DNA of 22,039 nt from a virus: positions 1 to 22,039 of the IMG/VR virus record IMGVR_UViG_3300020452_000743. One strand, given 5' to 3'. Shown here piece by piece: positions 1,687-21,638 of the stretch (positions are counted from its first letter, which is position 1; the number at the start of each line of letters is the position of its first letter). The notes beneath the pieces are model-generated. The model was not told where the DNA came from, did no database searches, and worked only from the letters and a program-made list of their open reading frames with translations. The position numbers and the translations under genes were made by a program.

Positions 1687-2880
1687 ATGAATCAATTCAA
1701 TTTTCGACAGTCTTCAGGTAAAGTTATGGGTAACAAAGTGAAGGGGATGACGGTCTTTAACACCAATGAAGTAGATACTAAAAAACAACCAATGTTCTTT
1801 GGTGCTCCTCTTGGGATTCAAAGGTATGATAGTTTTAAGTATCCACAGTTTGAGAATTTAACAAAGCAACAGTTAGGATATTTTTGGAGACCAGAAGAGG
1901 TATCCTTACAAAAGGATCGTGGAGACTTCCAATCTTTACGTCCAGAACAAAAACATATATTTACATCTAACTTAAAGTACCAGACTATGCTTGACTCAGT
2001 TCAAGGTAGAGCACCTGGTATGGCATTCATTCCTTACTGCTCCTTACCTGAGTTAGAAGCATGCATGGAGTGTTGGTCTTTTATGGAAATGATTCATAGT
2101 AGATCATATACTTATATTGTTAAGAATGTATATCCAAAGGCTTCTGATGTATTTGATACTATTCTTAGGGATGACAAGATTTTAGAACGTGCTGCTAGTG
2201 TCACTGAGTCTTACGATAACTTCATTGCATATGCACAGGAGTATGGTCAGAGCACTGCTTGGACAGATGACATGAGAGACCATCCCAATTCTGAATGGAC
2301 AAGAAAAGATTTAAAGCGTTCACTTTATAGAGCAGTGGCTAATGTCAACATTCTGGAAGGTATCCGCTTTTATGTTTCTTTTGCTTGTAGTTTTGCTTTT
2401 GGTGAGCTTAAACTCATGGAAGGATCTGCGAAAATCATATCTCTTATTGCAAGAGATGAGAACCAGCATCTGGCAATAACTCAAAACATATTAAACCATT
2501 GGAGGAAGGGTCATGATGATCCTGAGATGGCAGTGATTGCAAAGGAGGAAGAAGATTGGACATACCAAATGTTTGATCGTGCTGTGAATGAGGAGAGAAA
2601 ATGGGCAGAGTATTTATTTAAGGATGGAAGTATGATTGGATTGAATGATAAACTTCTACAGAATTATGTTGAGTGGATTGCAAACCGTCGCTTGAGGTCT
2701 ATTGGTTTAAAACCCCAGTATGATATTCCTGCTAAAAACAATCCATTACCTTGGACAGAGCATTGGATCTCTTCTAAGGGATTACAGGTAGCACCACAAG
2801 AGACTGAGGTTGAGTCTTATGTTGTTGGTGGTATCAAACAAGACGTTAAGAAGGACACCTTCTCAGGATTTAAATTATGA
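1687..2880 (+). CDS. nrdB: Ribonucleoside-diphosphate reductase, beta subunit (class Ia)
   Basis: Radical-generating subunit of class Ia ribonucleotide reductase; 397 residues, close to E. coli NrdB. Every diiron ligand is visible: Asp80 (QKDRGDF), Glu134 and His137 (MEMIHS), Glu224 (NILEGIRF), Glu258 and His261 (RDENQH). The tyrosyl-radical residue is Tyr141 in HSRSY. The subunit therefore looks active and is of the Tyr-radical type. The ATG at 1687 lies 13 nt after the nrdA stop; no strong Shine-Dalgarno is seen. The residues before the family-like start of similarity (about 1-35) form a poorly recognisable N-terminal extension. Unlike T4 nrdB, the gene has no group I intron. The stop codon overlaps a tiny membrane-peptide ORF by 4 nt. 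Confidence 0.97.
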   Translation: MNQFNFRQSSGKVMGNKVKGMTVFNTNEVDTKKQPMFFGAPLGIQRYDSFKYPQFENLTKQQLGYFWRPEEVSLQKDRGDFQSLRPEQKHIFTSNLKYQTMLDSVQGRAPGMAFIPYCSLPELEACMECWSFMEMIHSRSYTYIVKNVYPKASDVFDTILRDDKILERAASVTESYDNFIAYAQEYGQSTAWTDDMRDHPNSEWTRKDLKRSLYRAVANVNILEGIRFYVSFACSFAFGELKLMEGSAKIISLIARDENQHLAITQNILNHWRKGHDDPEMAVIAKEEEDWTYQMFDRAVNEERKWAEYLFKDGSMIGLNDKLLQNYVEWIANRRLRSIGLKPQYDIPAKNNPLPWTEHWISSKGLQVAPQETEVESYVVGGIKQDVKKDTFSGFKL

Positions 2881-2954
2881 CCACATTTATAGTATGGGTA
2901 TGTATTTCAATATTGATTTACATATTTTTGAAGAACTTTAAAAATCATGCGTAA
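2877..2954 (+). CDS. Tiny single-pass membrane peptide (25 aa), hypothetical
   Basis: A 25-codon frame beginning MTTFIVWVCISILIYIF and ending in a basic tail (KNFKNHA). The first ~18 residues form one hydrophobic segment, as expected for a transmembrane peptide with a cytoplasmic positive tail. It fills the only gap between nrdB and the following HAD gene. Its ATG overlaps the nrdB stop (ATGA) and its stop overlaps the next start by 8 nt, which is the junction style used across this window. I recognise no family. It could be chance, since the stretch is short and AT-rich; the double overlap and the hydrophobic pattern are the evidence for it. Confidence 0.45.
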   Translation: MTTFIVWVCISILIYIFLKNFKNHA

Positions 2955-3651
2955 GTATATTTTTGATGTAGATGGGACTCTTACACCTAGTAGGAGTCAA
3001 ATTGATAAATCATTTCAAGCATTCTTTATAAAATTTTGCTGCACATATCCAGTATATCTGGTTACTGGTAGCGACAGACAGAAGACCGTTGACCAACTTG
3101 GTCTTGATATTTGCTATAGAGCAAGGAGAGTATATAATTGCTCTGGTAGTGATGCTTATGAAAGAGACGTTAATGTCTATAGAGATGATTGGGAACTACC
3201 TAAGCAGGTAGAAAAATTTTTAGAAGATGAGTTAGCATATAGTTGTTTTCCTATTAGGAATGGTTCTCATATTGAGAGAAGACCTGGTGGAGTAAACTTC
3301 AGCATCTTAGGTAGAGGTAAAGATACCTTTAATGGAAGGGAAGAGTACGTTAAGTGGGACAAGGAGAGATTAGAGAGAGTTGATATAGCAGAGAGACTTA
3401 AAACCCAGTTCCCAGACCTAGAGGTACAGGTAGGAGGTCAGACTGGATTAGATCTATCACCAAAGGGAAGTAATAAAAGTCAAATCTTAAGAGACTTTGA
3501 TAAGACTGATGACTTACACTTCTTTGGTGACATGATGGAGGAAGGACAGAATGATTATCCTTTAGCAATGGCAATATTAGACAATATGATGGGAACCTGT
3601 TACAATGTGAACGATTATAAAGAGACTCAAAAATTGTTACTAAATATTTGA
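2947..3651 (+). CDS. Phosphomannomutase-like HAD-superfamily enzyme
   Basis: 234 residues, close to eukaryotic-type alpha-phosphomannomutase (PMM, about 245). HAD motif I is FDVDGT (Asp7, Asp9), motif II VTGSDR (Thr40-Ser42), motif III Lys177 in GSNKSQIL, and motif IV FFGDMMEEGQND (Asp195, Asp203). The cap carries HIERRPGGVNFSILGR, which resembles the PMM substrate-binding stretch with its conserved arginines, and GGQTGLDLSPKG resembles the PMM segment leading to motif III. PMM interconverts mannose-6-phosphate and mannose-1-phosphate in the cytosol, the step before GDP-mannose. That fits the GDP-mannose/fucose genes about 10 kb downstream, though this gene sits beside nrdAB. Alternatives are another sugar-phosphate phosphatase of the Cof/HAD-IIB type. 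The family match is good; the substrate is inferred. Confidence 0.75.
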   Translation: MRKYIFDVDGTLTPSRSQIDKSFQAFFIKFCCTYPVYLVTGSDRQKTVDQLGLDICYRARRVYNCSGSDAYERDVNVYRDDWELPKQVEKFLEDELAYSCFPIRNGSHIERRPGGVNFSILGRGKDTFNGREEYVKWDKERLERVDIAERLKTQFPDLEVQVGGQTGLDLSPKGSNKSQILRDFDKTDDLHFFGDMMEEGQNDYPLAMAILDNMMGTCYNVNDYKETQKLLLNI

Positions 3652-3672
3652 CATGACATATAAATTTACTAA

Positions 3673-4122
3673 ATGGTTGAAGGAGGAGTTTACGAAAACC
3701 CCTGGCTATATGAGGGTAAACCTTTCACTACTGACGATATTGGCGATCAGTTCGGTTTCGTCTACCTCATTACTAATCTTGAATCGGGTAGAAAATACAT
3801 CGGAAGGAAAAACTTCCAACAGCATCGAAAGCCTAGAGGTAGCAGACGCAAACGGACGAGTGAGAGTAACTGGAAAGCATACTACGGAAGTTCTAAAGAA
3901 CTTAACGAGGACAGGAAACTTCTGGGGAATACCTCCTTCTCAAGAGAAATCCTAGGATTATACAAGACGCAAGGAAAAGTAAACTACGAAGAAACGAGAC
4001 AATTATTTCTAAATAATGTCTTAACAGAGTCGCTTGACGATGGCACTCCTGCGTACTATAATAGTAATGTTCTAGGACGCTACTACAAAAAAGACTACTA
4101 CGAAGGAACTCTTTTTTCCTAA
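3673..4122 (+). CDS. GIY-YIG nuclease-like protein
   Basis: 149 residues. The N-terminal core reads GFVYLITN (28-35), then KYIGRKNF (41-48), the two halves of a GIY-YIG motif. A conserved-looking basic block (RGSRRKRTSESNWKAYYGSS) follows, then REIL with Glu92 as the candidate metal-binding acid. The GIY-YIG fold makes DNA nicking or double-strand cuts in homing endonucleases (T4 Seg, I-TevI) and repair enzymes. No intron lies beside it, so if it is a homing enzyme it is free-standing. The start at 3673 is the first ATG after an in-frame stop at 3670-3672. A second ATG at 3653 opens a different frame that I reject. The function is not certain: this phage-common family has no assigned role that I know of. 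Confidence 0.7.
   Translation: MVEGGVYENPWLYEGKPFTTDDIGDQFGFVYLITNLESGRKYIGRKNFQQHRKPRGSRRKRTSESNWKAYYGSSKELNEDRKLLGNTSFSREILGLYKTQGKVNYEETRQLFLNNVLTESLDDGTPAYYNSNVLGRYYKKDYYEGTLFS
4034..4062 (+). promoter_or_regulatory. Sigma70-type promoter, TTGACG-17-TATAAT
   Basis: The -35 TTGACG (4034-4039, 5/6) and -10 TATAAT (4057-4062, 6/6) are separated by exactly 17 nt. They lie inside the 3' end of the GIY-YIG gene and face the small-gene group starting at 4170. The expected start is near 4069, giving a leader of about 100 nt that contains the hairpin at 4131-4144. Confidence 0.6.
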
Positions 4123-4130
4123 ATAATTAC

Positions 4131-4144
4131 TACCCTAACGGGTA
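4131..4144 (+). other. Small perfect hairpin in leader
   Basis: TACCC and GGGTA form a five-base-pair stem closed by a TAAC tetraloop, 9 nt after the stop of the GIY-YIG gene. No T-run follows, so it is not a classical terminator. It may stabilise or cap an mRNA end. Confidence 0.35.
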
Positions 4145-4169
4145 AGAATCAGCCAAGTAGAAGAATTTG

Positions 4170-4262
4170 ATGATGTGGATGCAACTTATTTGCTGCCACA
4201 TTTTCTGTTTCATGTTTGTATTTTTCTATGTTGGGTTACTAGTAAAACTTAATGACAAGTAA
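4170..4262 (+). CDS. Tiny cysteine-rich membrane peptide (30 aa), hypothetical
   Basis: A 30-codon frame beginning MMWMQLICCHIFCFMFVFF, followed by YVGLLV and a short charged tail. About 23 residues in a row are hydrophobic, consistent with one transmembrane helix, with three cysteines in its first half. It fills the space between the GIY-YIG gene and the next hypothetical gene, whose ATG it overlaps by 11 nt. It also lies downstream of the promoter at 4034-4062. It starts with two ATG codons in a row; a purine-rich AGAAG lies just upstream. No family is recognised. Support comes from the gap-filling position and composition. Confidence 0.42.
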   Translation: MMWMQLICCHIFCFMFVFFYVGLLVKLNDK

Positions 4263-4464
4263 GTATACTAGGGACATGCTAGTCAAGTCCATAGTTGCAA
4301 ATCACATGTCTGGCATAGGATCAACATCTATAGCTAATCAAACCTACGTCAGTCAACTCAAAGATTTGTACCATAAATGGGAGCATGTCTCTTCAGAGGA
4401 TTTACTCCTCATGTATAATAAGATACAAAAAACTGCTATTACACTAAGTCAACTAACACCTTAA
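4252..4464 (+). CDS. Hypothetical protein (70 aa)
   Basis: A 70-residue soluble-looking protein starting MTSKYTRDMLVKSIVANHMSG. It is mixed-charge and probably helical, with a second amphipathic segment near residues 34-60 (SQLKDLYHKWEHV, EDLLLMYNKIQK). No signal peptide or metal motif is visible and I do not recognise a family. It overlaps the tiny membrane ORF upstream and precedes the SleB-like gene by 12 nt, so it belongs to the same transcription unit from the promoter at 4034-4062. Confidence 0.7.
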   Translation: MTSKYTRDMLVKSIVANHMSGIGSTSIANQTYVSQLKDLYHKWEHVSSEDLLLMYNKIQKTAITLSQLTP

Positions 4465-4476
4465 AATTTTTTTGTT

Positions 4477-4881
4477 ATGATTCCCATTCCTTTAGTATGT
4501 TTAATGTACTCTACTCTCGATCCCGCTGAGTATGTAGAAATAGCAAGAGTAGTACAAGTTGAAGCATACCGACACTCCAAAGATGAATATGGTGTCGCTG
4601 CTAATATTATGAACCGAGTTGCATCTGACGACTTCCCCGATTCTGTAACTGAAGTTACCAAGCAACCCCATCAATACGAGGGATTAAGAATATTTCCAAA
4701 TAAAAAAATAGATTCGGCATTAGTCGCAAAATTATCATCACCCAAAGGGCAAATCGGTGTTTGTAATGCTTTAAATAAATTGGAAGGGCGTAAGTATTTT
4801 AAGGGACAATCACAACTATATAATAGGGTTCCTGAAGAAGACCCTATGTTCCACCCTAATGGAAACTTTTACCATCACTGA
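4477..4881 (+). CDS. SleB/CwlJ-like cell wall hydrolase
   Basis: 134 residues resembling the SleB-type Hydrolase_2 fold. VVQVEAYRHSKDEYGVAANI (with the VEA glutamate as likely catalytic acid) is followed by MNRVASDDFPDSV, matching the family's 'NRV....FP.TV' block, and then an HQYEG segment. The end, MFHPNGNFYHH, resembles the aromatic/His-rich end of the domain. Members cleave peptidoglycan as lytic transglycosylases or amidases. In a phage this suits lysis, virion entry or remodelling. The first 14 residues are mildly hydrophobic but make a weak signal peptide, so export would need a holin or virion packaging. The fold is moderately supported; the bond cut is unknown. Confidence 0.65.
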   Translation: MIPIPLVCLMYSTLDPAEYVEIARVVQVEAYRHSKDEYGVAANIMNRVASDDFPDSVTEVTKQPHQYEGLRIFPNKKIDSALVAKLSSPKGQIGVCNALNKLEGRKYFKGQSQLYNRVPEEDPMFHPNGNFYHH

Positions 4882-4886
4882 CGATT

Positions 4887-5183
4887 ATGGACTTAGACAA
4901 GAATCAAAACATTAATAAAGTTAAGAGGGAAGACCTCGCAGATTTTGGTGCTGACAATATTGCTGGTTTCCAAAACTATATCGCACAACAGATTGGAGAT
5001 GATGAGAATTCTATCTTATCTCAAGTCATGGAAAAGAATGCTCAATCAGAATTTTTATACAAGCATTCTGCTGCACATAGTGGAGAACTAGATGTTGTTA
5101 CTGGAATGCCTACAGGTAGAACCCAGAAGTTTGAAGATTTCATCACACCCAAGCGTGGGGTTGACAAGAAGCAGACAGACTGA
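4887..5183 (+). CDS. Hypothetical protein (98 aa)
   Basis: 98 residues, acidic and soluble, beginning MDLDKNQNINKVKREDLADFG. It has an asparagine/glutamine-rich middle and a lysine-rich tail (KRGVDKKQTD). No transmembrane segment or known motif is visible. It follows the SleB-like gene by 5 nt in the same operon. Its last codons contain the -35 box of the strong promoter at 5161-5189, so the promoter sequence constrains the C-terminus. No function can be given. Confidence 0.75.
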   Translation: MDLDKNQNINKVKREDLADFGADNIAGFQNYIAQQIGDDENSILSQVMEKNAQSEFLYKHSAAHSGELDVVTGMPTGRTQKFEDFITPKRGVDKKQTD

Positions 5184-5189
5184 TATAAT
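5161..5189 (+). promoter_or_regulatory. Perfect consensus sigma70 promoter with extended -10
   Basis: TTGACA (5161-5166) and TATAAT (5184-5189) are both 6/6 matches with a 17-nt spacer, and TGA directly before the -10 makes it an extended -10. Transcription should start near 5196, at the head of the structured RNA. It is the strongest promoter in the window by sequence. Confidence 0.8.
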
Positions 5190-5195
5190 ATATTT

Positions 5196-5356
5196 GTTGA
5201 GGCGACGGTCTTGGCACGGGAGTGACTGAATAAACTTACTGGCATATTGCTGGTTAAGGTGATGAGACACAGGTGGTGCTGCACCGAGAGGTGAATCGAC
5301 TTACCAGTCGGGTCTCAGGCAAAGATGTAATTACTCTGTAGTAATGCCCGTCTTTT
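5196..5356 (+). ncRNA. Structured RNA: candidate riboswitch-like leader or small RNA
   Basis: About 160 nt without a credible ORF, directly downstream of a perfect promoter. Visible helices are TGAGAC (5263-5268) with GTCTCA (5312-5317), enclosing GGTG/CACC (5275-5278/5282-5285) and CGACT/AGTCG (5297-5301/5306-5310, loop TACC). GGCA/TGCC (5318-5321/5345-5348) encloses ATTACT/AGTAAT (5330-5335/5340-5345); the outermost pairs of these two compete at 5345. GACGG (5204-5208) can close the domain with CCGTC (5348-5352), followed by a TTTT run. The cupin gene starts 44 nt later, so this may be a cis-regulatory leader or a processed small RNA. From memory, the manA and wcaG RNA motifs occur in marine cyanophages near nucleotide-sugar genes; I could not test membership. 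Confidence 0.65.
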
Positions 5357-5399
5357 GTTGGTACACAGGAACCCAACCTCCCATACACTCTTTTTAATC

Positions 5400-5900
5400 A
5401 TGTATGAGTTAATTAAAAACAGATTCCAAAAGTGTAAAAAGGTAACATGGGATGATGTGATTGATAAAATGGATCACGATCTGTCCTCTAATCGTTGTAG
5501 AATTGTTGGTGAAGGAATCGGTACGTTTCCTTCTCTTTTTACTTTCAGTGAGAATTATTTTCCTGGTACACTTTACCCTGCTATGGAAGAGGTTGATCTT
5601 CAGGAATCTGGTCTTGATAGCATGCACGTATACGCTTCATTCATCAAAGGAGCACCTACCTATGGTAGACACAATGATGATACTGATGTTATTATAGTAC
5701 AAGCAAGAGGTAAAATGACGTATGGTTTTGATGATGGCACATATGCACATCTAGAACCAGGTGATAGTCTTTTTATTCCTGCGTATACATATCATGATCC
5801 GATATGTAATAAAGGTCCACGAATTAGTTTGAGTTTTGGGTATGCCAACAAGAGAAGATCTATTACACTACCGACTTCAAGCAGTACTCAGGGAGAATAA
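5400..5900 (+). CDS. Cupin/JmjC-like Fe(II)-type protein
   Basis: 166 residues from the ATG at 5400; an upstream in-frame TTG at 5355 lies in the structured leader and is rejected. The C-terminal half is a double-stranded beta-helix: GRHNDD (His91, Asp93), then RGKMTYGF, LEPGDSLFIPAYTYHDP (His132) and SLSFGYAN. His-x-Asp plus a distal His is the iron-binding triad of JmjC-like and other 2-oxoglutarate oxygenases. The same fold also serves sugar isomerases of the cupin type, so oxygenase and sugar-binding roles both remain possible. It is the first gene after the structured RNA and its perfect promoter, so it is the likely target if that RNA is a switch. No Shine-Dalgarno is evident. Confidence 0.65.
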   Translation: MYELIKNRFQKCKKVTWDDVIDKMDHDLSSNRCRIVGEGIGTFPSLFTFSENYFPGTLYPAMEEVDLQESGLDSMHVYASFIKGAPTYGRHNDDTDVIIVQARGKMTYGFDDGTYAHLEPGDSLFIPAYTYHDPICNKGPRISLSFGYANKRRSITLPTSSSTQGE

Positions 5901-6045
5901 TTTTCCTGATTTAGAATATATTGGAGAACGTCCTAGTTATAAAACAGGTGATATGGTTCATTGGTATCGTATAGGAAAAGCAGAAGTTCCTGTTGATGCT
6001 ATCACAGAGTTTGAAACGGAGGCAGAAGAAGATGATGCTAGTTAG
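5842..6045 (+). CDS. Hypothetical protein (67 aa)
   Basis: 67 residues from the ATG at 5842, overlapping the 3' end of the cupin gene by 59 nt, which is longer than other overlaps here. The sequence is helix-like at first (EDLLHYRLQAVLRENNFPDLEYIGERPSY), then has an aromatic stretch (DMVHWYRIG) and an acidic tail. Its end overlaps the start of the zinc-ribbon gene. No family is recognised. The coding frame is believable because it fills the space to the next gene. The true start could be further downstream. Confidence 0.55.
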   Translation: MPTREDLLHYRLQAVLRENNFPDLEYIGERPSYKTGDMVHWYRIGKAEVPVDAITEFETEAEEDDAS

Positions 6046-6277
6046 ATGTAAGATGTGTGGAGTGGAATTAGCAAGTTCTAAGAAACCTCAGTGCTGCGGT
6101 TGTTCCAATCAAATGATTGTGAGTGAGGATAGTGTGAGTGCTAAGGATCTTAGTAGTGTTGTTATGGTTAACCACATTCATGGTGTGGAAGAGACCACAC
6201 TCAGTAAAAAAGAATTAGAGTGGCAAGAAAATAGGAAGAGAAGAAAAATTAAACGATTGGATTTTGAAGTAAGATGA
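6032..6277 (+). CDS. Small zinc-ribbon-like protein (81 aa)
   Basis: 81 residues starting MMLVRCKMCG. Cysteines at 6, 9, 21, 22 and 24 (CKMC then QCCGC) make a likely zinc site of the C-x2-C...C-x2-C or CC-x-C type. The rest is charged, with a basic end (ENRKRRKIKRLDFEVR) that could bind nucleic acid or protein. A GGAGG about 9 nt upstream of 6032 decides the start over the longer in-frame extension beginning at 5993. The ATGA at the end overlaps the next gene. The function is unknown; a DNA-, RNA- or polymerase-binding accessory role is a guess from the zinc site and basic tail. Confidence 0.65.
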   Translation: MMLVRCKMCGVELASSKKPQCCGCSNQMIVSEDSVSAKDLSSVVMVNHIHGVEETTLSKKELEWQENRKRRKIKRLDFEVR

Positions 6278-6876
6278 ATATTCATGATTATATAAAGACC
6301 TTAGGGTATGAAGATGATTCGCCAATTGAAGGAGTTCAACTTAAGGTTGGGACAAAGTTTGCCTTTGAGTTTAGGGGTAATGGAATAGTTGTTTGTCCTT
6401 ATGTAATTGAGTATAAGAATAAATTAACTTATATCAACCTTGAATATGAACAGTTAAGATCTAAACATTCTCCTTCTAAAGTTACGGATAAGATTAAACA
6501 TCTAATCCAAAATATTAGGTATCCAGAACCAGGTAGAGTTGGTGACGTTGGATGGGATGTTAAATACCTTGTAGATCCAAGGGAGTTTACCCCCAAAGAA
6601 CGTGCTAAAATTGCTATCAGTAGTTTTAGAAAAATGAAAGAGTTGTTAATAGGAACTGACTCTGGTATGGCAGGACTTAAGGGAGAACCTGGAGATATAA
6701 TTGTCTCTGATCCACTTGGAATCAAATTTGATTTAGGTCACACCAAAGAATCTGAACAGCAAGGAACTATTCAGAGAAGCGTTCTATCAAAAAAAGTATT
6801 CAACTTTGGTGATGTAAAAGAAGATGGTATGCAATATGCCATCTATGATGAGGATTACAATTTACAACCAATCTAA
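6274..6876 (+). CDS. Hypothetical phage protein (200 aa)
   Basis: 200 residues, beginning MNIHDYIKTLGYEDDSP. The middle is beta-rich (KFAFEFRGNGIVVCPYVIEYKNKLTYINLEY), followed by a charged helical region and a C-terminal part with GDIIVSDPLGIKFDLG and VFNFGDVKEDGMQYAIYDED. I recognise neither a catalytic motif nor a membrane segment. Its ATG overlaps the stop of the zinc-ribbon gene (ATGA). The next gene starts 2 nt after its stop, so it belongs to the same unit. The length and clean composition make it a real gene; no function is proposed. Confidence 0.8.
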   Translation: MNIHDYIKTLGYEDDSPIEGVQLKVGTKFAFEFRGNGIVVCPYVIEYKNKLTYINLEYEQLRSKHSPSKVTDKIKHLIQNIRYPEPGRVGDVGWDVKYLVDPREFTPKERAKIAISSFRKMKELLIGTDSGMAGLKGEPGDIIVSDPLGIKFDLGHTKESEQQGTIQRSVLSKKVFNFGDVKEDGMQYAIYDEDYNLQPI

Positions 6877-6877
6877 A

Positions 6878-7462
6878 ATGTTTATCAACGAAGTTACAAA
6901 AATAGATCCTAAGATCTTTACAGATAATGTAGACAAGATTAAGCAGGACTATATCCGATTCAGGGATATGCAATACTTCTTTGATTACTCTCATACTTAT
7001 AATCTTACTGCTGACTCCACTAATTTTGAATCTTTTATTCCAGAGTACACTGGATACATGTGGCAAGTATGTCCTTTAGTTTTTAGTCGTAAAGAAATCA
7101 AACTTACACCATTAGAAGTAAGACATTCCTTTACCACTGATTTACTCTTAGCACAGGATGTAAAACCAATTCTTGCAGTCTTCTCTATACTAGAACCAGG
7201 TGCAGAGTTAGATCCTCATGCTGACGGAGATAAGAGAATAGATCCTCAGTATATGGATTCTACTGTATATAAATTTCATCTATCTTTAGACATACCAGAG
7301 GATGGTGATAGCGCATTAGTATGTGGTGGTGAGACTAGAGTATTAGGTAACGGTGATCTAAATGTATTTGATGAGGAAGGAGAGCATTATGCATATAATA
7401 AAAGTAGTGGTAGAAGAGGAGTCCTTATCGTCTCATATATAAAAGCAGAGATTGACAAGTAG
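6878..7462 (+). CDS. 2OG-Fe(II) oxygenase, aspartyl/asparaginyl beta-hydroxylase-like
   Basis: 194 residues from the ATG at 6878; a longer in-frame start at 6824 would overlap the previous gene heavily. The C-terminal half carries the Fe(II) triad: PHADGD (His114, Asp116), then FHLSLDIPEDG, a beta-strand block LNVFDEEGEHYAYN (distal His170), and RRGVLIVSY, whose arginine (179/180) should bind 2-oxoglutarate. The 'fDd..eHe.yN...R.vLi' arrangement resembles Asp/Asn beta-hydroxylases (PF05118-like). Such enzymes hydroxylate protein side chains using O2 and 2-oxoglutarate. The substrate is unknown. It is the first of a run of oxygenases, and its 3' end contains the -35 box of the promoter for the next one. 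Confidence 0.78.
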   Translation: MFINEVTKIDPKIFTDNVDKIKQDYIRFRDMQYFFDYSHTYNLTADSTNFESFIPEYTGYMWQVCPLVFSRKEIKLTPLEVRHSFTTDLLLAQDVKPILAVFSILEPGAELDPHADGDKRIDPQYMDSTVYKFHLSLDIPEDGDSALVCGGETRVLGNGDLNVFDEEGEHYAYNKSSGRRGVLIVSYIKAEIDK

Positions 7463-7480
7463 CAATCTTGAATGTAGAAT
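7452..7480 (+). promoter_or_regulatory. Sigma70-type promoter, TTGACA-17-TAGAAT
   Basis: TTGACA (7452-7457, 6/6) and TAGAAT (7475-7480, 5/6) are spaced by 17 nt, at the very end of the preceding oxygenase gene. The expected start is near 7487, 15 nt before the ATG at 7502, so it should drive the oxygenase/radical SAM genes. Confidence 0.65.
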
Positions 7481-7501
7481 ATCGTTATATTAGGATATAA
7501 T

Positions 7502-8095
7502 ATGTCAACTATTGAACCGCATGTAGTTTGCGATGATCCAGTGGTTTTTTATCAGGAGATACTTCCACCTGAGTTAGTGGATCTCATGGTAAAAGAACTT
7601 AAGCAGATGGAAGAGGATAGAGTTCCATTTGAGGATGGTGGTGTAGGTGGTGATGCACATGGAAGAAATGATCTTACAGTACGTAACTCCAAAGTTAATT
7701 GGTGGTATGAGAGTCATTGGGCATGTAGTGTTATATCACATTATATAAATCTAGCAAATAAAAAGACGTGGCAATATGATTTAAACACTCTTGAGAGTAT
7801 TCAGATCTCTGTATATCAAGAGGGTGGTCACTATGGATGGCATAGTGATTATGGAACATCCAATAAACAGAACTGGACACGTAAGTTAAGTGCTAGTGTT
7901 TTGGTAACAGATCCTAGTGAGTATGAAGGTGGTGATTTAGTCTTCATAGATTATCATGGTAATGAAATTAATACCCCAAAAGAAAAAGGTACTATTTTAG
8001 TTTTTGATTCTAGAATTCCTCATAAAGTAAAAAAAGTAACTAAGGGTAGAAGAGTGTCTCTTGTAACTTGGATGTACGGTCCTAAGTTGAGGTAG
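7502..8095 (+). CDS. 2OG-Fe(II) oxygenase, prolyl-4-hydroxylase/PKHD-like
   Basis: 197 residues. The catalytic core is QEGGHYGWHSDYG (His114, Asp116), then KLSASVLVTDPSEYEGGDLVF, a hallmark of the P4Hc/PKHD family, and RIPHKVKKVTKGRRVSL (distal His174; Arg184 for 2-oxoglutarate). All Fe(II) ligands are intact, so it should be active. Known members hydroxylate prolyl or other residues in proteins; phage homologues have no settled substrate. The promoter at 7452-7480 and an AGGA upstream of the ATG support this start. It is followed after 2 nt by a second oxygenase of the same broad fold, suggesting co-expression. Confidence 0.9.
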   Translation: MSTIEPHVVCDDPVVFYQEILPPELVDLMVKELKQMEEDRVPFEDGGVGGDAHGRNDLTVRNSKVNWWYESHWACSVISHYINLANKKTWQYDLNTLESIQISVYQEGGHYGWHSDYGTSNKQNWTRKLSASVLVTDPSEYEGGDLVFIDYHGNEINTPKEKGTILVFDSRIPHKVKKVTKGRRVSLVTWMYGPKLR

Positions 8096-8097
8096 TC

Positions 8098-8823
8098 ATG
8101 CCTGAATTTTTTGGTGAGAATCAAGGTTGGCAAGGTGGAAAAAGTACTTGGAAACCCTCAGTTAAATGGCCTCGGTTTACTAAGGAAGGATTTAAGAAAG
8201 TAAAAATTCCTGATGATATCTATGCAGATATCATGGAGCATTATAGTAGGTGTCAGTTTGGAGAAGAGGTAGTAGAAGATAGAGGATTTGATGAGGATTA
8301 TGGTGAGTATGTTGTTGGTGGATCTATAGCAGTTAGGTTTGCAAAAAAACCAGAAGAGGTGTATTATAATAGGTCTACACTACCACATGATCTCATCCAA
8401 AAATGGGCTAAACAATTACAACCATTAATGGAAGAGTGGAGTGGTGTTGAACTTGAGTTCTCTGCTGGATATGGTATAAGGGAATACATCCCAAATTCTA
8501 TTCTATCAATTCATAGAGATAAGGCAGAGACTCATGTTATCAGTATTATAATTTTTATTGATGAGAGTCCTGAAGGAACTAAGTGGCCTTTGGAATTTGT
8601 TGATCATGAAAAAGTTATACATAAGGTAACATTTGAAAAAGGAGATATGCTTTTTTATGAAAGCTTATGTCCTCACTCAAGAAACACACCATTCTTGGGT
8701 AAGTTGTATAGGAACATGTACTTCCATTGGCGACCTGTCGATTGGGATAGTACAGAGTACCTAGGTCAAAAATGTAAATACTCCTGTATGCAGGAAGTTC
8801 TCGATGAGGAGATCGAACAATGA
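8098..8823 (+). CDS. 2OG-Fe(II) oxygenase
   Basis: 241 residues. The motif order is YIPNSILSIHRDKAETH (His139, Asp141), IIIFIDESPEGTKWPLEFV, GDMLFYESLCPHSR (distal His193), and LYRNMYFHWRP with Arg205 for 2-oxoglutarate. These match a P4H-like double-stranded beta-helix. The first ~110 residues are less conserved and probably set the substrate. The GAGG just before the ATG at 8098 gives a good ribosome site inside the end of the previous gene. The final ATGA overlaps the next small gene. The target is unknown: a protein side chain is likeliest by family, and a small molecule is possible. Confidence 0.87.
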   Translation: MPEFFGENQGWQGGKSTWKPSVKWPRFTKEGFKKVKIPDDIYADIMEHYSRCQFGEEVVEDRGFDEDYGEYVVGGSIAVRFAKKPEEVYYNRSTLPHDLIQKWAKQLQPLMEEWSGVELEFSAGYGIREYIPNSILSIHRDKAETHVISIIIFIDESPEGTKWPLEFVDHEKVIHKVTFEKGDMLFYESLCPHSRNTPFLGKLYRNMYFHWRPVDWDSTEYLGQKCKYSCMQEVLDEEIEQ

Positions 8824-9038
8824 ACGCACAAGTACAGACCGAAAAAATTTCTTTGGAGTACTTCAAAGATCATTTCCAAGAAGTATGGAGTCAATGTGGA
8901 CGTGGACGAACTTATCAAGTTGAAGGAGACTTTGAAGTTATTGAACTAAGGAAACTTGGAACACCTGCTTTGAAGGAATTAGTAAAACCAGAATGGCCAC
9001 CTGCTGATCTGGGTTGGCACTCACCTTGCGATATCTAA
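8820..9038 (+). CDS. Hypothetical protein (72 aa)
   Basis: 72 residues beginning MNAQVQTEKISLEYFKDHF. It is soluble and mixed-charge, with a tryptophan-containing C-terminus (PEWPPADLGWHSPC). It is preceded by GAGGAG at good spacing and overlaps the upstream oxygenase by 4 nt, so it is translationally coupled to it. No motif is recognised. It may be a partner or regulator of the oxygenase, but nothing in the sequence shows this. Its 3' end contains the -35 box of the next promoter. Confidence 0.7.
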   Translation: MNAQVQTEKISLEYFKDHFQEVWSQCGRGRTYQVEGDFEVIELRKLGTPALKELVKPEWPPADLGWHSPCDI

Positions 9039-9054
9039 GGGTATCGTTTATAAT
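9026..9054 (+). promoter_or_regulatory. Sigma70-type promoter, TTGCGA-17-TATAAT
   Basis: TTGCGA (9026-9031, 4/6) and a perfect TATAAT (9049-9054) are separated by 17 nt. The expected start is near 9061, 30 nt before the ATG at 9091. It would drive the genes from 9091 to 11443, a group separated by overlaps only. Confidence 0.55.
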
Positions 9055-9090
9055 ATACAGGTACAATGTAAACAACGAGTCATCGAGGAA

Positions 9091-9303
9091 ATGACACTCA
9101 GTTCTAAATTTAAAAAAGATCTAAGCACCCTACGTGCTGCTGCAAACAAGGAAATTTATTTAGACGTAAAAAATCCAAAACTATATAAAAAAGTTATGAG
9201 GTATTATGTAGGTGAAGGTGTAGAGTTATCGGGAGAAGATCCTGATGCAGACTATAATAATATTATGGATTGTATTGCAGAGGATCTTATTGGAGTGGTA
9301 TGA
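9091..9303 (+). CDS. Hypothetical protein (70 aa)
   Basis: 70 residues: a basic first half (KFKKDLSTLRAAANKEIYLDVKNPKLYKKVMRYYVGEGVE) and an acidic second half (EDPDADYNNIMDCIAEDLIGVV). The Y-rich helix and acidic tail look like a small phage accessory protein, but I can name no family. It is the first gene after the promoter at 9026-9054, with a GAGGAA ribosome-site-like stretch before the ATG. Its stop overlaps the next oxygenase start (ATGA). Confidence 0.7.
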   Translation: MTLSSKFKKDLSTLRAAANKEIYLDVKNPKLYKKVMRYYVGEGVELSGEDPDADYNNIMDCIAEDLIGVV

Positions 9304-9905
9304 ATAAAGGCACTGATATACAAACCACATATTTGGATAAGTTTATAGGGATCTGGGATAATGCCTTTGATCCCGATTTTTCCAACTGGGTTATTGATTA
9401 TTGGAAGACTACAAAATATATTGCTAATAGGAATAATCCAGTACAACAAGACAAACAAATCGCACTGAATAGTTTTTCTCCTGGTGAGGCAAATTATATA
9501 CAAGAACGTGTTGATGACTGCTTTGGTATGTACATGGATAAGTATCCATATCTTTCTAATTTTAATTTCTATAGTGGATTAGTCCTACTTCAAAAGACTG
9601 AACCTATGGAAGGGTATCATGCATGGCATAGTGAAGATAGTACATGGGAAGCACAACTTCGTACTCTTGCTTGGACAGTTTACTTTAATGATGTTGAAGA
9701 TAGTGGTGAGACAGAATTTTTATATCAACAAACTAAAATAACTCCTAAGAAAGGTAGGATCGCTATATGGCCAGGTTCATTCACTCATTTGCATAGAGGT
9801 AATCCACCTAACAAAACTAAGTATATTGCTACTGGATGGTACGCTGGAGATGGTGGTATGAATTATTTTAAACCTGGACAAAATGGAAAGGTTCAAGGTA
9901 ATTGA
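9300..9905 (+). CDS. 2OG-Fe(II) oxygenase with H-x-E iron motif
   Basis: 201 residues from the ATG at 9300, coupled to the upstream gene by ATGA with GGAG before it; the longer in-frame start at 9270 is rejected. The oxygenase core reads MEGYHAWHSEDSTWEAQLRT, RTLAWTVYFNDVEDSGETEFLY, and GRIAIWPGSFTHLHRGNPP, then KYIATGW. The first metal motif is H-S-E (His110, Glu112), not H-x-D. The distal His is 163 or 165. Glu for Asp is tolerated in some members, so I expect activity, but it is the least standard of the iron sites in the run. It overlaps the radical SAM gene by 23 nt, the longest overlap in this stretch. The substrate is unknown. Confidence 0.85.
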   Translation: MNKGTDIQTTYLDKFIGIWDNAFDPDFSNWVIDYWKTTKYIANRNNPVQQDKQIALNSFSPGEANYIQERVDDCFGMYMDKYPYLSNFNFYSGLVLLQKTEPMEGYHAWHSEDSTWEAQLRTLAWTVYFNDVEDSGETEFLYQQTKITPKKGRIAIWPGSFTHLHRGNPPNKTKYIATGWYAGDGGMNYFKPGQNGKVQGN

Positions 9906-10695
9906 TGTACCACATTTAGAATGGCATGTAACACATTCTTGCAACTTTACTTGTCAAGGATGTGGACATTTTACTAACGATGGTTATAAAGAAAATTTTA
10001 CAGTAGATGAATTAAAGTCTTGGTATCTCCCTTGGATTGATAAGATCAGACCGAGGGAGTTATCTATGCTTGGTGGTGAACCATTATTGAATAAGGATAT
10101 TATAGAGATCATCTATATGACTAAAGAGATTTGGAGTATAGAATCTGATCAAGTATTTGAATTAGTAACTAATGCTTTATTAATTGATAAGTATCCTGAT
10201 CTTCCCAAGGCATTGTCTGATACTAATTGTATCCTTACAATTACAAAACATTCTGATGATGATAAGTATATAAAATTATTTAATAGATGTATTGATAAAA
10301 TTAAATCTTGGGGTGTAGAATATGTTATACATGATGCAGTTGATTATTGGTTGAAGGCATATGTAGGTTATGGTCCTACGATTGAACCAATAGGAAGTGA
10401 TGACTTCAAAGAGAGTTGGGATAATTGTCCTACAGGACAGGAGAACTTCCAACTATATAAAGATAAAATATATAAGTGTGCTCCTTTAGCATATTTACCT
10501 CTACAAAAAAAGAAGTATGATCTCTCAGATAAATGGGAACCATATCTTAAATACATACCCTTGAGTCCTGATGGAGATATAGAGAAGTTCTTCTCCAGAA
10601 AAGCAGAGACTGTTTGTGCAATGTGTCCCAAAAAATCAGGTCGATTCAAAAAACCATCTCCATTATATTCTCCCAAACATTATGGAATTTTATAG
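9883..10695 (+). CDS. Radical SAM protein with C-terminal cysteine cluster
   Basis: 270 residues. The N-terminal THSCNFTCQGC gives CxxxCxxC (Cys20, 24, 27), the [4Fe-4S] ligand set that cleaves S-adenosylmethionine, and LGGEPLLN (63-70) is the SAM-binding GGE motif. Further cysteines at 182, 199, 245 and 248 (DNCP, YKCAP, CAMC) could hold an auxiliary cluster, like a reduced SPASM region. SPASM-type enzymes modify peptides or carbohydrates by radical chemistry. Here the gene sits between an oxygenase and an oxygenase-related protein, overlapping both. That suggests a joint modification pathway acting on a protein or sugar. Neither the substrate nor a precursor peptide gene is visible. Confidence 0.9.
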   Translation: MERFKVIDVPHLEWHVTHSCNFTCQGCGHFTNDGYKENFTVDELKSWYLPWIDKIRPRELSMLGGEPLLNKDIIEIIYMTKEIWSIESDQVFELVTNALLIDKYPDLPKALSDTNCILTITKHSDDDKYIKLFNRCIDKIKSWGVEYVIHDAVDYWLKAYVGYGPTIEPIGSDDFKESWDNCPTGQENFQLYKDKIYKCAPLAYLPLQKKKYDLSDKWEPYLKYIPLSPDGDIEKFFSRKAETVCAMCPKKSGRFKKPSPLYSPKHYGIL

Positions 10696-11443
10696 TAAAC
10701 GTGATCTATTTTCTGAGGGTATAAGATTAGAACTAATTGATAAATTAGAAAGACATTTTGAAGAGAACTTATATGATGCAGATAATGGTATACTACAAGT
10801 TACACAATGTGTTATTGATTGTCATGGATTAGCATTAAGTCCAAGTTCTTATTTTCCTTATGCTGACAGGTGTTGGAATATATTTGTTTTAAAGGTAAGA
10901 GATTGTATTCATGAGTATGCTGAACAGGTCGGTATAAATCCTAGTTCTATGATACCGTTCTCATGTTATGCTGAACGATTAAGTTATTCTATGTTTGATG
11001 GTTTAGATCCTCTAACTTGGAAGCATACTATATGGAGGAGAATGTATGAGTCTGGAGATTCATATGATCTTAAAGATTGGAGAGTTGATAAAAAATCTAG
11101 TATGATTACAGGATATAAAACTAGAGGTGATACTAATGTTCTTACTGACAAACAAGTTAAGTACCCTTTTATAAGAACAGTATTCTATTTACAAAATAAA
11201 GATCAAGCATATGGAACTCATATTGAAACTGAAGAGGGGTCACACAGACATCTTGGTGAAGAAAATTCTATATTAATATATCCAAACCTTCCTTCTTATA
11301 ATGTATTGCCTCATAATCCAGAGTACGTAGAGAGTTCTCCACCAATTAATATTATATTTGAATGGTATATTTGGGATCTTCTTCCTAAGGGTGCTAAAGG
11401 TTTTGGGCAAAAACTTAGATCGCCTGACTGGGTGCTGCCGTAG
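10682..11443 (+). CDS. Oxygenase-family-related protein lacking metal ligands
   Basis: 253 residues from the ATG at 10682, overlapping the radical SAM stop by 14 nt; an in-frame extension from 10616 lies within that gene. The C-terminal half is clearly related to the two minus-strand oxygenases downstream: IRTVFYLQNKDQAYGT and GEENSILIY correspond to their [14 protein letters not shown] and GEENSIIIF. At the place of the H-x-D motif it has no His-x-Asp, and PSYNV replaces the LNHSA/LFHSA block with the distal histidine. It is probably catalytically inactive, or binds no iron, and could be a scaffold or substrate-binding partner. The N-terminal half is unrecognised. The gene meets its minus-strand neighbour head-on with a 29-nt overlap of 3' ends. 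Confidence 0.65.
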   Translation: MEFYSKRDLFSEGIRLELIDKLERHFEENLYDADNGILQVTQCVIDCHGLALSPSSYFPYADRCWNIFVLKVRDCIHEYAEQVGINPSSMIPFSCYAERLSYSMFDGLDPLTWKHTIWRRMYESGDSYDLKDWRVDKKSSMITGYKTRGDTNVLTDKQVKYPFIRTVFYLQNKDQAYGTHIETEEGSHRHLGEENSILIYPNLPSYNVLPHNPEYVESSPPINIIFEWYIWDLLPKGAKGFGQKLRSPDWVLP

Positions 11444-12095
11444 GATCAAACTCGCAACTATTATAATTTGTTGATGGAGTAAATGTTCTCTCCATAGATG
11501 TATCGACAACAACTGTATACCTTGGATATTTTTCTACAACATCTAGTGGTGGATATATTGCACTGTGATTTAATCTAGCATCATATATGAGAGCAGTATT
11601 CTCTACACCTTGATGCATATAGATTTGCTTATCACTTACCTTAACCATTGTTCCATATTTTGGATCTGGATTTTTTAAATAGATGATTACTCCTATAGGA
11701 TTGTTATCATGGTTATGAAGATTTCTATATGGAGTAAAGGTATCTACTTTATTCTTTGCAAGGGGATCATCTTCTGGTAGACCATTATATCTTGTGACCC
11801 ATGATGAATGAAATCTTACATTCTTATAATTTAAATCTGCTAACTTACAATATTGAACTATACCTAATCTAACTCTTTCTAATAAAGTATCCCATACATA
11901 TTGATCTTTTATCTCATTTAAAATATTTGAAGTTGCCTCTGGAGGGAACACTTCAATAGTAGGATCTTTTTTAATTTTTGTAATTAGTTCATCACAACTC
12001 TCCAGTAGTCCTCCCATGACTTCTTCTGGAAGAAAGTTTTGTATGTTTAAAAAATAATTCCCATTAAATTTTTTTACTTGTGCTTTACTTGCCAT
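11415..12095 (-). CDS. 2OG-Fe(II) oxygenase-like protein (minus strand)
   Basis: 226 residues on the minus strand, third gene of a minus-strand operon. The fold follows its upstream paralogue: IEVFPPEA near residue 50, then IGVIIYLKNPDPKYGT, YMHQGVENTALIYDARLNHSAIYPP (distal His177) and YPRYTVVVD (Arg192). The first iron site reads LHNHDNN (127-130), so His and Asp are present but not in the exact H-x-D spacing of the paralogue's AHLDCD. Activity is therefore uncertain. The start at 12095 overlaps the small gene before it by 11 nt. The C-terminus extends about 25 residues beyond the paralogue's core (TFTPSTNYNSCEFDP). Confidence 0.75.
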   Translation of the reverse strand: MASKAQVKKFNGNYFLNIQNFLPEEVMGGLLESCDELITKIKKDPTIEVFPPEATSNILNEIKDQYVWDTLLERVRLGIVQYCKLADLNYKNVRFHSSWVTRYNGLPEDDPLAKNKVDTFTPYRNLHNHDNNPIGVIIYLKNPDPKYGTMVKVSDKQIYMHQGVENTALIYDARLNHSAIYPPLDVVEKYPRYTVVVDTSMERTFTPSTNYNSCEFDPTAAPSQAI

Positions 12096-12339
12096 CTTGT
12101 TGTTGCAATTTTTCTACGACAGTTTGTGATTGCATTTTTGGTACATCCATCAAACCATTAGCATCAAACCAAGGTGCTTCTTCCCAGTCAAATCCTTCAC
12201 CTGTAAAGTCTGGACTAATTATATACCAATGACAAGCAGAGTCAGGAACATCAACTGCACATATTGCCCAGTTGTCTGCCCATTGAGGTACTTGTACCCA
12301 CATGACTGCTGCTGCAAATATACTAATTAAAAATGTCAT
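12085..12339 (-). CDS. Small exported or membrane-anchored hypothetical protein (84 aa)
   Basis: 84 residues, minus strand. The N-terminus [17 protein letters not shown] is a hydrophobic stretch suitable as a signal peptide or membrane anchor. The rest is acidic and tryptophan-rich (WADNW, CHWYIIS, FDWEEAPWFDA) with two cysteines, Cys27 and Cys36, that could form a disulfide outside the cytoplasm. It sits between the two oxygenase genes with a 4-nt ATGA overlap before and 11 nt after, so it is co-translated with them. I recognise no family. Its setting suggests a periplasmic or membrane partner, but that is a guess. Confidence 0.7.
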   Translation of the reverse strand: MTFLISIFAAAVMWVQVPQWADNWAICAVDVPDSACHWYIISPDFTGEGFDWEEAPWFDANGLMDVPKMQSQTVVEKLQQQDGK

Positions 12340-13004
12340 GTTGTTGGTTTACTCCTTTTAAATGTTTCGTCTTTCATACTATATCTAAATTTATAGTCTG
12401 CTACGATAGTGTATCTAGGATACTTTTTTGTTATTGCCATAGGAGGATAAACTGCACTATGGAATAATCGACCATCAAATATAATTATTGAATTCTCTTC
12501 ACCAATGTTTAAAATATTTTGTCCACCTGCTTTTTTTATTAATGTACCATATTTTTTATCTGGATTCTTTAGATAGAATACACTAGTTATTGGATCACAG
12601 TCAAGATGTGCATGCATGTTGCCTTCAGTAGAATGTCTTCTTAGTCTATCTATTAAATCCACTTCCATTTTATGAGAGAAGTCTAAATCTTTAACTCTAG
12701 TAATCCAAGACGCATGGCGACTTAGATAATCCATAGGTATATCTATTAACTTACTATATTCTTTTACTATAAGATCGAGAGTATTATAATACTTTCTCCA
12801 TATAGGATCGTTTTTAAATTCATCATACTCAAAAAGTTTTCCTGATGCTTCGGGTGGGAAGACTTCTTCTGTAGTATCCTTCCTAGTTTTTTCTAACCAA
12901 TAAACAGAAGACTTATATAACTTTTTTAAAAAAGTTTTAGGGAATACATCAATAACTTTATAGAAGTGATATCCGTCAATTTCAATACTCTTTACTTTAC
13001 TCAC
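12336..13004 (-). CDS. 2OG-Fe(II) oxygenase (minus strand)
   Basis: 222 residues, first gene of the minus-strand operon, starting at GTG (13004). The triad is complete: HAHLDCDP (His133, Asp135), then [35 protein letters not shown] (distal His182), and [10 protein letters not shown] (Arg197) for 2-oxoglutarate. It is a clear paralogue of the gene at 11415-12095 and is related to the degenerate plus-strand gene at 10682-11443, so the family has expanded locally. Both minus-strand members carry EVFPPEA near residue 50, a subfamily mark. A late-promoter-like CATAAATA lies just upstream. The substrate is unknown. Confidence 0.82.
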
Positions 13005-13012
13005 TTTATGAA

Positions 13013-13041
13013 TTGTTATGTAGAGATATTTATGCTATACT
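13013..13041 (+). promoter_or_regulatory. Extended -10 sigma70-type promoter of the glycan operon
   Basis: TTGTTA (13013-13018, 4/6) and TATACT (13036-13041, 5/6) are separated by 17 nt, with TGC before the -10 giving an extended -10. The expected start is near 13048, 16 nt before the gmd ATG. A second perfect TATAAT at 13049-13054 has no -35 at the right distance. It is the only promoter I see for the ten genes to 21594. Confidence 0.65.
13027..13034 (-). promoter_or_regulatory. Late-promoter-like CATAAATA (minus strand)
   Basis: On the minus strand this reads CATAAATA, 7/8 to the T4 late box TATAAATA, and lies 23 nt before the GTG at 13004. It falls inside the spacer of the plus-strand promoter. 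That would let the minus operon be late and the plus operon early. A single 8-base match is weak evidence. Confidence 0.35.
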
Positions 13042-13063
13042 TAGAACATATAATGCCCATACT

Positions 13064-14065
13064 ATGAAGACAGCTTTAATAACTGGAATCACGGGTCAGG
13101 ATGGATCTTACCTTGCGGAGTTACTTCTAGAGAAGGGATATGATGTTCATGGTATTGTTCGTCGTTCTTCGATGATTAATACAGATAGGATAGATCATAT
13201 CTTTGACAAGATTACTCTTCACTTCGGTGACATGACTGACTCTGGTAATATCATTCACGTAATACAGAAAGTTAAACCAGACGAAATTTATAATCTCGCA
13301 GCACAGAGTCATGTCAAAGTATCTTTTGAGATGCCTGAGTATACAGGTCTAGTTGATGCTATGGGAACTCTGAGAGTTCTTGAAGCAGTAAGAATTCTTG
13401 AGTTGCAAGATAAGTGCAAAGTTTATCAGGCATCAACTTCAGAGTTATATGGATTGGTTCAAGAGACTCCACAAACTGAGGAGACTCCATTCTATCCACG
13501 TTCACCTTATGGTGTAGCAAAGTTATATGGATATTGGATCATCAAGAATTATAGAGAGTCATATGGAATGTATGCTTGCTCTGGTATCCTGTTTAATCAT
13601 GAGTCTCCACGTAGAGGTGAGACCTTTGTAACTCGTAAGATTACTCGTGGTCTATCTAAAATCTCATGTGGTTTACAGAAGGAGATTGTCTTAGGTAATA
13701 TCAATGCAAGACGTGACTGGGGTCATGCTAAGGATTATGTTGAAGCAATGTGGTTGATGTTACAACAAGATCAACCTAAAGATTATGTTATTGCTACAGG
13801 ACTGTCTTATAGTGTTAAAGATTTTGCTGAGAAAGCAGCAGTATATTTTGGAATTACTCTTAGGTGGGAAGGAGAAGGATTAGATGAGGTTGGTATAGAC
13901 AGGTCTAGTGGGAAAACCATCATCAGATGCAGTGATAAATATTATCGACCTGCTGAAGTTGAGACTTTATTAGGTGATGCTCGTAAAGCAAGAGAGGATC
14001 TAGGTTGGGAACCTAAGATATCTTTTGATGAATTAATTGAGGATATGTGTATCTATGGACAGTAG
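13064..14065 (+). CDS. gmd: GDP-mannose 4,6-dehydratase
   Basis: 333 residues. It converts GDP-D-mannose to GDP-4-keto-6-deoxy-D-mannose, the first step to GDP-L-fucose and related sugars, in the cytosol. The N-terminal Rossmann motif is TGITGQDG (7-14) for NADP. The catalytic region has STSELYG (Ser124, Thr125, Glu127) and [10 protein letters not shown] with Tyr149 and Lys153 (YxxxK). [16 protein letters not shown] is the classic GMD substrate block. The start at 13064 is chosen over an in-frame TTG at 13013 because family members begin at MKTALITG and the promoter lies between. It heads the ten-gene operon and overlaps fcl by 11 nt. Identification is secure. Confidence 0.96.
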
Positions 14066-14990
14066 TTCTAAAGTATTCGTTGCAGGACACAACGGTCTAG
14101 TTGGTTCTGCCATTGTTAGAAATCTAGAGTCAAAAAATTACAATAACATTTTCTGGGTACGAAGAAAGAATTGTGACCTGACAGATAGAAATCAGGTTGA
14201 CCATTACTTCGATCAATCAAAACCAGAGTATGTTTTTCTTGCTGCCGCAAAGGTCGGTGGTATTATAGGTAATAAAAAATTCCCTGCAGAATTCATCTAT
14301 GACAATCTGATGATTCAGACAAATGTCATAGACGCTGCTTATCGTCACGGTGTTAAAAAACTTGTATTCTTAGGATCATCTTGTATCTATCCTAAGATGG
14401 CAAAGCAACCAATAACAGAGGATCAGTTGATGACTGGTACTTTGGAACCAACTAATGATGCTTATGCTATTGCTAAGATAGCAGGTATCAGGATGTGTCG
14501 TGCTTATCGTGAGCAATATGGATTCAATGCTATAGCATTACAACCAACAAACTTGTATGGTGAGAATGATAACTTCCACCCAGAACATGGTCATGTAATT
14601 CCAGGTATCATGCGTAGAATGTATGATGCAAAACAGAATGGTGATGCTGAGTTTGCTTGTTGGGGTGATGGATCTGCTATGAGAGAATTCCTTTACATTG
14701 ATGATCTTGCTGAGGCATGTTATACTTGCATGGATAAGTATGACTCCGATGAGATTATTAATGTTGGTAGTGGCGTTGATGTTACTATCAAAGAACTCAC
14801 AGGTCACATTGCTGATGTAGTTGGTTACACTGGCAAGATTGTTTGGGACACTAGTAAACCTAATGGTACACCTAGGAAGGTTCTCAACGTGGATAAGATC
14901 AAGTCTCTTGGATGGGAACCAACCTTAGGTCTCAAAGAAGGACTACATAAAACTTTTGAATGGTATAAAGAAAATCATGATAGGCTTTAA
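14055..14990 (+). CDS. fcl: GDP-L-fucose synthase
   Basis: 311 residues, also known as WcaG. It performs epimerisation and NADPH reduction of the Gmd product to GDP-L-fucose. Visible motifs: AGHNGLVG (GxxGxxG, Gly11/14/17), [16 protein letters not shown] with Ser108 and Cys110, and YAIAK with Tyr137 and Lys141 (E. coli Ser107/Cys109/Tyr136/Lys140 equivalents). [21 protein letters not shown] is a typical GMER substrate-binding block. The chosen start (14055) overlaps gmd by 11 nt; an upstream TTG at 14037 is in frame but adds residues that do not fit the family. The order gmd-fcl then fucosyltransferase is the normal fucose module. Confidence 0.96.
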
Positions 14991-19282: not shown

Positions 19283-19283
19283 T

Positions 19284-21594: not shown

Positions 21595-21609
21595 CCGTAT
21601 TCTAGGTGC

Positions 21610-21638
21610 TTGACAGGTCTTTGTGTGAATGGTAAGAT
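21610..21638 (+). promoter_or_regulatory. Sigma70-type promoter, TTGACA-17-TAAGAT
   Basis: A perfect -35 TTGACA (21610-21615) and TAAGAT (21633-21638, 4/6) are 17 nt apart, with TGG before the -10 (extended -10). The expected start is near 21645, at the edge of the palindrome that precedes the late promoter. It faces the exported-protein gene at 21803. Confidence 0.6.

Follow-up and report, generated by a model that had tools for sequence, protein, structure and literature searches.

The manA RNA of cyanophages, listed as a riboswitch candidate, is probably an autonomous RNA gene

Introduction

Ahead of a cupin-like gene, a 22,039-nt stretch of viral DNA (IMG/VR record IMGVR_UViG_3300020452_000743; the whole stretch is here called the window) carries a consensus promoter followed directly by a region that appears to fold. 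Which RNA does this locus encode, and does it control the gene behind it? An earlier note made from the sequence had proposed a folded RNA of about 160 nt, and had listed a manA- or wcaG-type riboswitch, another leader or a free small RNA as candidates. The manA motif was proposed to be cis-regulatory, and possibly a riboswitch, by Weinberg et al. 2010 (PMC2864571), and a 2023 cyanophage paper regards its riboswitch role as still to be verified. Our literature search found no functional study of manA, and no ligand is reported in the papers found. Abundant ocean viruses carry this class of RNA, which has stood in listings as a candidate riboswitch since 2010. Here we report that the window RNA belongs to this already known family, and conclude that an autonomous RNA gene acting in trans explains the family better than a riboswitch does.

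Results

A full-length manA RNA lies ahead of the cupin-like gene

An Rfam search, which the earlier note had suggested for manA and wcaG, detected manA (RF01745) as the sole RNA family in the window, and no match to the wcaG covariance model (RF01761) was found anywhere in it. The manA match (Table 1) exceeds the curated gathering score, its bit score being three times the cut-off of 55.2 bits, and the guess of a manA RNA was indeed right. Because the model is matched end to end, the RNA is 193 nt long and not about 160 nt as had been estimated; its folded nature is upheld by this match and by covariation. Neither ARAGORN nor Rfam matched the window RNA to a tRNA or tmRNA, and both identities were rejected.

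As had been remarked, the stretch is richer in GC than its neighbours (0.49 versus 0.363 window-wide), and 0.15% of 193-nt stretches are equally GC-rich. It also holds no believable open reading frame (ORF): the only ones that overlap it lie on the minus strand and are 60-80 residues long, and a conserved ORF through the region, which would have spoken against an RNA, did not appear. The cupin-like gene that had been placed behind the RNA is there, with matches to Cupin_2 and JmjC_2 that are weak; its start codon lies 12 nt past the RNA end, with no terminator or tRNA between them. The ORF upstream of the RNA has no PHROG or Pfam match. Beyond the window, manA was found in cyanophage records and IMG/VR contigs, that is, in a marine or cyanophage setting; two of 84,980 prokaryote genomes gave a match, both on contigs with phage-family genes.

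Table 1 Features of the manA locus in the window
Feature	Position	Strand	Details
Upstream ORF, 98 aa	4887..5183	+	3' end holds the promoter
Sigma-70-type promoter	5161..5189	+	-35 TTGACA 5161-5166, 17-nt spacer, TATAAT 5184-5189
Predicted +1	5195..5197	+	First paired base of P1; predicted from usual promoter spacing
manA RNA (RF01745), full length	5195..5387	+	173.2 bits (E 6.7e-47) over model positions 1-192 of 192
P1 hairpin, GACG tetraloop	5195-5203/5208-5216	+	Rfam fold; 9/9 pairs with double changes
Closing helix GGGAG/CUCCC around multibranch core	5218-5222/5378-5382	+	100% paired in 81 sequences
P2 hairpin	5238-5243/5249-5254	+	Rfam fold, covariation
P3 stem	5263-5268/5312-5317	+	6/6 P3 pairs with double changes
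Three hairpins inside P3	5270-5281, 5282-5293, 5296-5311	+	Rfam fold, covariation
Long hairpin	5321..5355, outer stem 5321-5327/5349-5355	+	7/7 outer-stem pairs with double changes
3' hairpin GUUGG/CCAAC, 11-nt loop	5357..5377	+	Contiguous with closing helix; 100% paired
Cupin/JmjC-like gene, 166 aa	5400..5900	+	ATG 5400; weak Cupin_2 and JmjC_2 matches; phrog_4992

The fold is supported by covariation

Taken alone, the folding energy of the window RNA is not unusual (z -0.79) and was rejected as uninformative; the evidence for structure is covariation together with the family match. When the Rfam fold is mapped to the window and its 56 pairs are followed through 81 non-redundant homologues, 93.6% of cells are paired, and pairing drops to 45-47% when the partners are slid by one base. 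Double-sided changes were found in 38 of the 56 pairs (shuffled mean 20.4), with the observed score reached by none of 500 shuffles, so that the absence of covariation, which the earlier note had named as a possible refutation, did not hold.

The GACG loop of P1 is kept in 105 of 124 loci on a stem of highly variable sequence. In the closing helix, A-U/U-A and G-C/A-U exchanges occur among the 81 sequences. A directed scan found 60 loci with an altered fourth base of GGGAG, nearly all of them GGGUG and about 50 with CACCC, and a scan for third-base changes gave no matches. GGGAG/CUCCC was also considered as a pseudoknot and rejected, being nested in the model and closing the core. A GGGUG 5' strand is combined with a CUCCC 3' strand at L218, L232, L238, L278 and L285, which leaves the closing helix with a U-U mismatch; these loci are possible recombinants or chimeric assemblies. 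The inner 4-bp stem of the long hairpin is poorly supported (59% paired). A possible likeness to a stretch of 23S rRNA (GACACAGGUGGU) was dropped, because GAGAC forms a covarying strand of a stem and conservation is confined to AGGUGGUG.

A near-consensus promoter precedes nearly all copies

The window promoter, described in the earlier note as a perfect TTGACA-17-TATAAT with an extended -10, indeed scores 12/12, with TG at 5181-5182 and then an A before the -10 hexamer. None of the other promoter-like sites in positions 2500-22039, where 95 were scored in all, reaches 12/12, and random 40-nt control slots in related loci reached 12/12 in 12 of 19,585 cases. A free-standing noncoding RNA gene is expected to possess its own promoter, and a promoter scoring 10-12/12 lies upstream of manA in 235 of 240 homologous loci compared with 1.9% of control slots, many of these loci being mutually related so that locus counts do not equal independent events. 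The same result was obtained with a non-redundant set of 82 loci (95%).

The distance from the -10 element to P1 (median 5 nt, sd 1.5) varies less than that from the -10 element to the conserved GGGAG (sd 3.3), suggesting that +1 tracks the 5' end of the RNA. In each of the five promoterless loci, tRNA sequence abuts manA on its upstream side. At four of them (L086, L251, L265 and L287), a tRNA-Thr or tRNA-Ala was called immediately upstream of manA with a gap of 0 nt, the P1 estimate overlapping by 2 nt in two; at the fifth (L045), the upstream sequence is tRNA-Gly-like and was not called as a tRNA. A terminator overlaps the upstream promoter region in 38% of loci versus 1% of controls, and it would stop upstream transcription from entering manA.

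Sister phages carry a single copy at different sites

A model search of 35 records, with 11 complete cyanophage genomes among them, gave exactly one manA copy per record, and the copies occupy at least five different neighbourhoods. Both the single copy and the independence of position are expected of a free-standing noncoding RNA gene.

P-HM1 and P-HM2 are one species and have manA at different sites, the site used by the other phage being empty in each. In P-HM2, manA sits exactly at +1 of the gp32 promoter; P-HM1 keeps the same promoter directly before gp32, with no RNA there. In P-HM1, manA follows gp23 as a unit of terminator/promoter, RNA and terminator, and at this place P-HM2 has only the gp23 terminator and the late-promoter-like CTAAATAAT of the next gene, a TAAATA-type sequence that is kept in the empty site. 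If manA controlled its neighbour, P-HM1 and P-HM2 would control unrelated genes with the same RNA. At 4849-5023 of P-HM2 (GU075905), the annotated hypothetical proteins PHM2_011 and PHM2_012 overlap manA and are probably false genes. At least in the main text of the P-HM2 RNA-seq paper, the manA locus goes unmentioned.

tRNAs, terminators and unrelated genes surround manA

tRNAs adjoin manA far more often than expected (18 in 241 loci versus about 0.6, an about 30-fold excess), and all 35 tRNAs in manA loci are on the same strand. The cyanophage contig L251, which carries T4-like tail-fibre, CpeT and ferredoxin-oxidoreductase genes, has the gene order tRNA-Thr, permuted tmRNA, tRNA-Ala, manA and tRNA-Asn. 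Its tmRNA (4828-5119, minus strand) is of the permuted cyanobacterial type, with 144.7 bits for RF01851 and 81.1 bits for RF04321. Downstream of manA, an intrinsic terminator is present in 12% of loci versus 1.3% of controls, and these terminators have varied sequences and fall outside the manA helices and core.

The downstream protein genes of 188 loci fall into about 54 clusters. Among them are the gp32 single-stranded DNA-binding protein gene (48 loci) and transaldolase (about 26 loci), and the others include mannose-6-phosphate isomerase, phosphomannomutase, Hsp20, PurS, ThyX, carbamoyltransferase, cupin and hypothetical genes. manA was found ahead of each of six relatives of the window's cupin gene. 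At three of these loci (L291, L292 and L295), the RNA and the start codon of the cupin gene have a tRNA-Tyr between them, whose maturation would part manA from the cupin mRNA. The next downstream gene is co-directional with manA in 155 of 159 loci (background 93%), and the upstream gene is on the opposite strand in 29 of 160, above the background expectation of 4.5%; manA is thus often the first element of a transcription unit, and the genes behind it probably use its promoter too.

These surroundings bear directly on the original proposal, in which manA would be a metabolite riboswitch whose aptamer, placed in the 5' UTR of genes for mannose, nucleotides or photosynthesis, switches the gene downstream. 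Rfam likewise gives the family the type Cis-reg, and the complex and conserved fold, the occurrence of mannose-6-phosphate isomerase or phosphomannomutase among the downstream genes and the almost constant co-direction of the next gene all agree with it. However, a riboswitch or leader should precede genes of consistent function from a constant place in the 5' UTR, whereas the genes and tRNAs behind manA (gp32, transaldolase, hypothetical genes) are functionally unrelated, and in some loci manA is embedded in tRNA and tmRNA arrays, followed by terminators or separated from the cupin gene by tRNA-Tyr. The one copy per genome and the relocation to different genes in sister phages also count against a switch, as may terminators that vary in sequence outside the manA helices. 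We thus consider a riboswitch unlikely, and the earlier suggestion of one for sugar-nucleotide genes finds no support in these unrelated genes, tRNA arrays and promoter-RNA-terminator units.

A generic 5' leader would cap the transcripts of strong promoters and serve any gene, by stabilising the message, by processive antitermination (as put RNAs do) or by aiding translation. Such a role would suit an RNA that begins at +1 with co-directional genes downstream, the position of manA between the gp32 promoter and gp32 in P-HM2, and terminator-like hairpins that could be read through. It is harder to reconcile with a single copy per genome instead of many, with promoterless copies within tRNA arrays, with the P-HM1 unit, behind which a terminator is followed by a gene that carries a late-promoter-like sequence of its own, and with the tRNA-Tyr that parts the RNA from the cupin gene in three relatives of the window locus, and it appears improbable to us. 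A transcribed relic without present function, hitchhiking beside strong promoters and tRNA genes, would account for the mobile position, for the association with tRNA genes that is common for inserted elements and for the failure of blastn to detect manA in every cyanophage, but dozens of invariant bases (many of them unpaired), strong compensatory change and the one copy kept in every record searched make it very hard to believe. The free small RNA that had been listed as an alternative is favoured by the tRNA arrays, the promoter-RNA-terminator units and the relocation.

Some manA RNAs are followed by a companion hairpin

In at least 120 scanned IMG/VR loci, we observed a hairpin of the form CCUAAGAUGCAACU-loop-GGGCAGAKGG, which lies 8-20 nt past the manA 3' end wherever that end is visible (for example, L012 3494-3523). 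Its outer pairs compensate (AGACC/GGUCU, AAACC/GGUUU and UAACC/GGUUA) and it carries a conserved internal loop; among the matches listed, it occurs only just after manA, and 70 of 119 have a U-rich tail. The hairpin gave no match above chance in Rfam, and its identity with a known RNA family was rejected. The RF01745 model thus lacks a hairpin that some manA members carry, and, judged against Rfam, this element is a candidate for an undescribed 3' domain of the manA RNA. A passage by the original manA authors (PMC3023696) speaks of "modular structures".

A 3' end signal of its own, in the form of a terminator, a tRNA or the U-tailed companion hairpin, is present in a subset of manA loci and absent in the window. 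In about 80 of 182 loci, the downstream companion hairpin, terminator and tRNA are all absent, which speaks against a free-standing RNA, as does the direct junction of RNA and cupin gene in the window. The window has no tRNA, terminator or companion hairpin behind manA, so its RNA would be processed from, or stay in, a longer transcript.

Discussion

Taken together, we propose that manA is an autonomous, single-copy, trans-acting structured RNA gene that does not control its neighbour, a reading to which we assign a probability of about 0.72; our confidence stays at this level because manA often heads a transcription unit. The promoter, the structure, the single copy, the relocation between sister phages and the neighbouring tRNAs and terminators are read from genomic sequence, and from them we infer that manA is transcribed, processed and active in trans.

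It is likely that the host sigma-70 RNA polymerase would start manA at the near-consensus promoter, with the first base of P1 as +1; a few genomes would instead generate this end by maturation of an abutting tRNA. The transcript would fold into a 5' hairpin and, within the closing helix GGG[A/U]G/C[U/A]CCC, a compact multibranch core, and its 3' end would be set by an intrinsic terminator or by a cut at the following tRNA. For the window, we would expect this end to be released by processing of a longer transcript that continues into the downstream gene. The mature RNA would then act in trans, and the neighbouring gene would not be its target. Given the company of tRNAs and tmRNA, translation or stable-RNA biology is the first place to seek that target. 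A bolder and quite tentative extension is that manA may be a new functional class of phage stable RNA, one that acts in trans on the machinery of host translation or of stable RNAs, matures together with phage tRNAs and tmRNA and in some cases bears a second, hitherto undescribed 3' hairpin domain; the riboswitch filing of 2010 would then be wrong.

The window RNA shares family, helices and cyanophage setting with the manA motif as filed under RF01745. The motif is filed as cis-regulatory and a riboswitch candidate, whereas the evidence here favours a free-standing RNA gene. A parallel in setting may be stable RNAs C and D of phage T4, noncoding RNAs with no known function that lie in the T4 tRNA cluster and are made beside the tRNAs. 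Like them, manA is a noncoding RNA of T4-like phages found beside tRNAs, a likeness that concerns setting; it differs in that most copies have a sigma-70 promoter of their own and many lie apart from tRNAs. Permuted cyanobacterial tmRNA (RF01851, RF04321) adjoins manA in L251, but manA differs from it in having no tmRNA match and no recognised T-loop or tag reading frame. The wcaG RNA is a cyanophage and marine RNA from the same paper as manA and is described by a different model; both occur in S-CREM1 (PMC9964418), where wcaG, manA and an abiF-type RNA lie within about 0.8 kb (9745-10567), another cluster of noncoding RNAs around manA. Glutamine-riboswitch-like sequences were also seen near manA, at L017 (312-360) by an Rfam call and at L056, L059, L068 and L080 by eye.

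If manA is a free-standing RNA gene, experiments shift from ligand screening to finding its binding partners. P-HM1 and P-HM2, with a common host and the same RNA at different sites, form a natural test pair.

Several other genes of the window deserve mention. The product of 3673-4122 bears the PHROG label NAD synthetase, and Pfam gives it a strong match to the SegE GIY-YIG endonuclease (177 bits); the NAD synthetase label on its cyanophage homologues looks mistaken. Upstream of manA, 2947-3651 encodes a phosphomannomutase-like HAD protein (PF03332, 75.8 bits), a homologue of which sits just downstream of manA in other phages. The short cell-wall hydrolase-like ORF at 4477-4881 (PF07486) matches residues 634-756 of an 870-residue endolysin profile and is possibly a detached domain.
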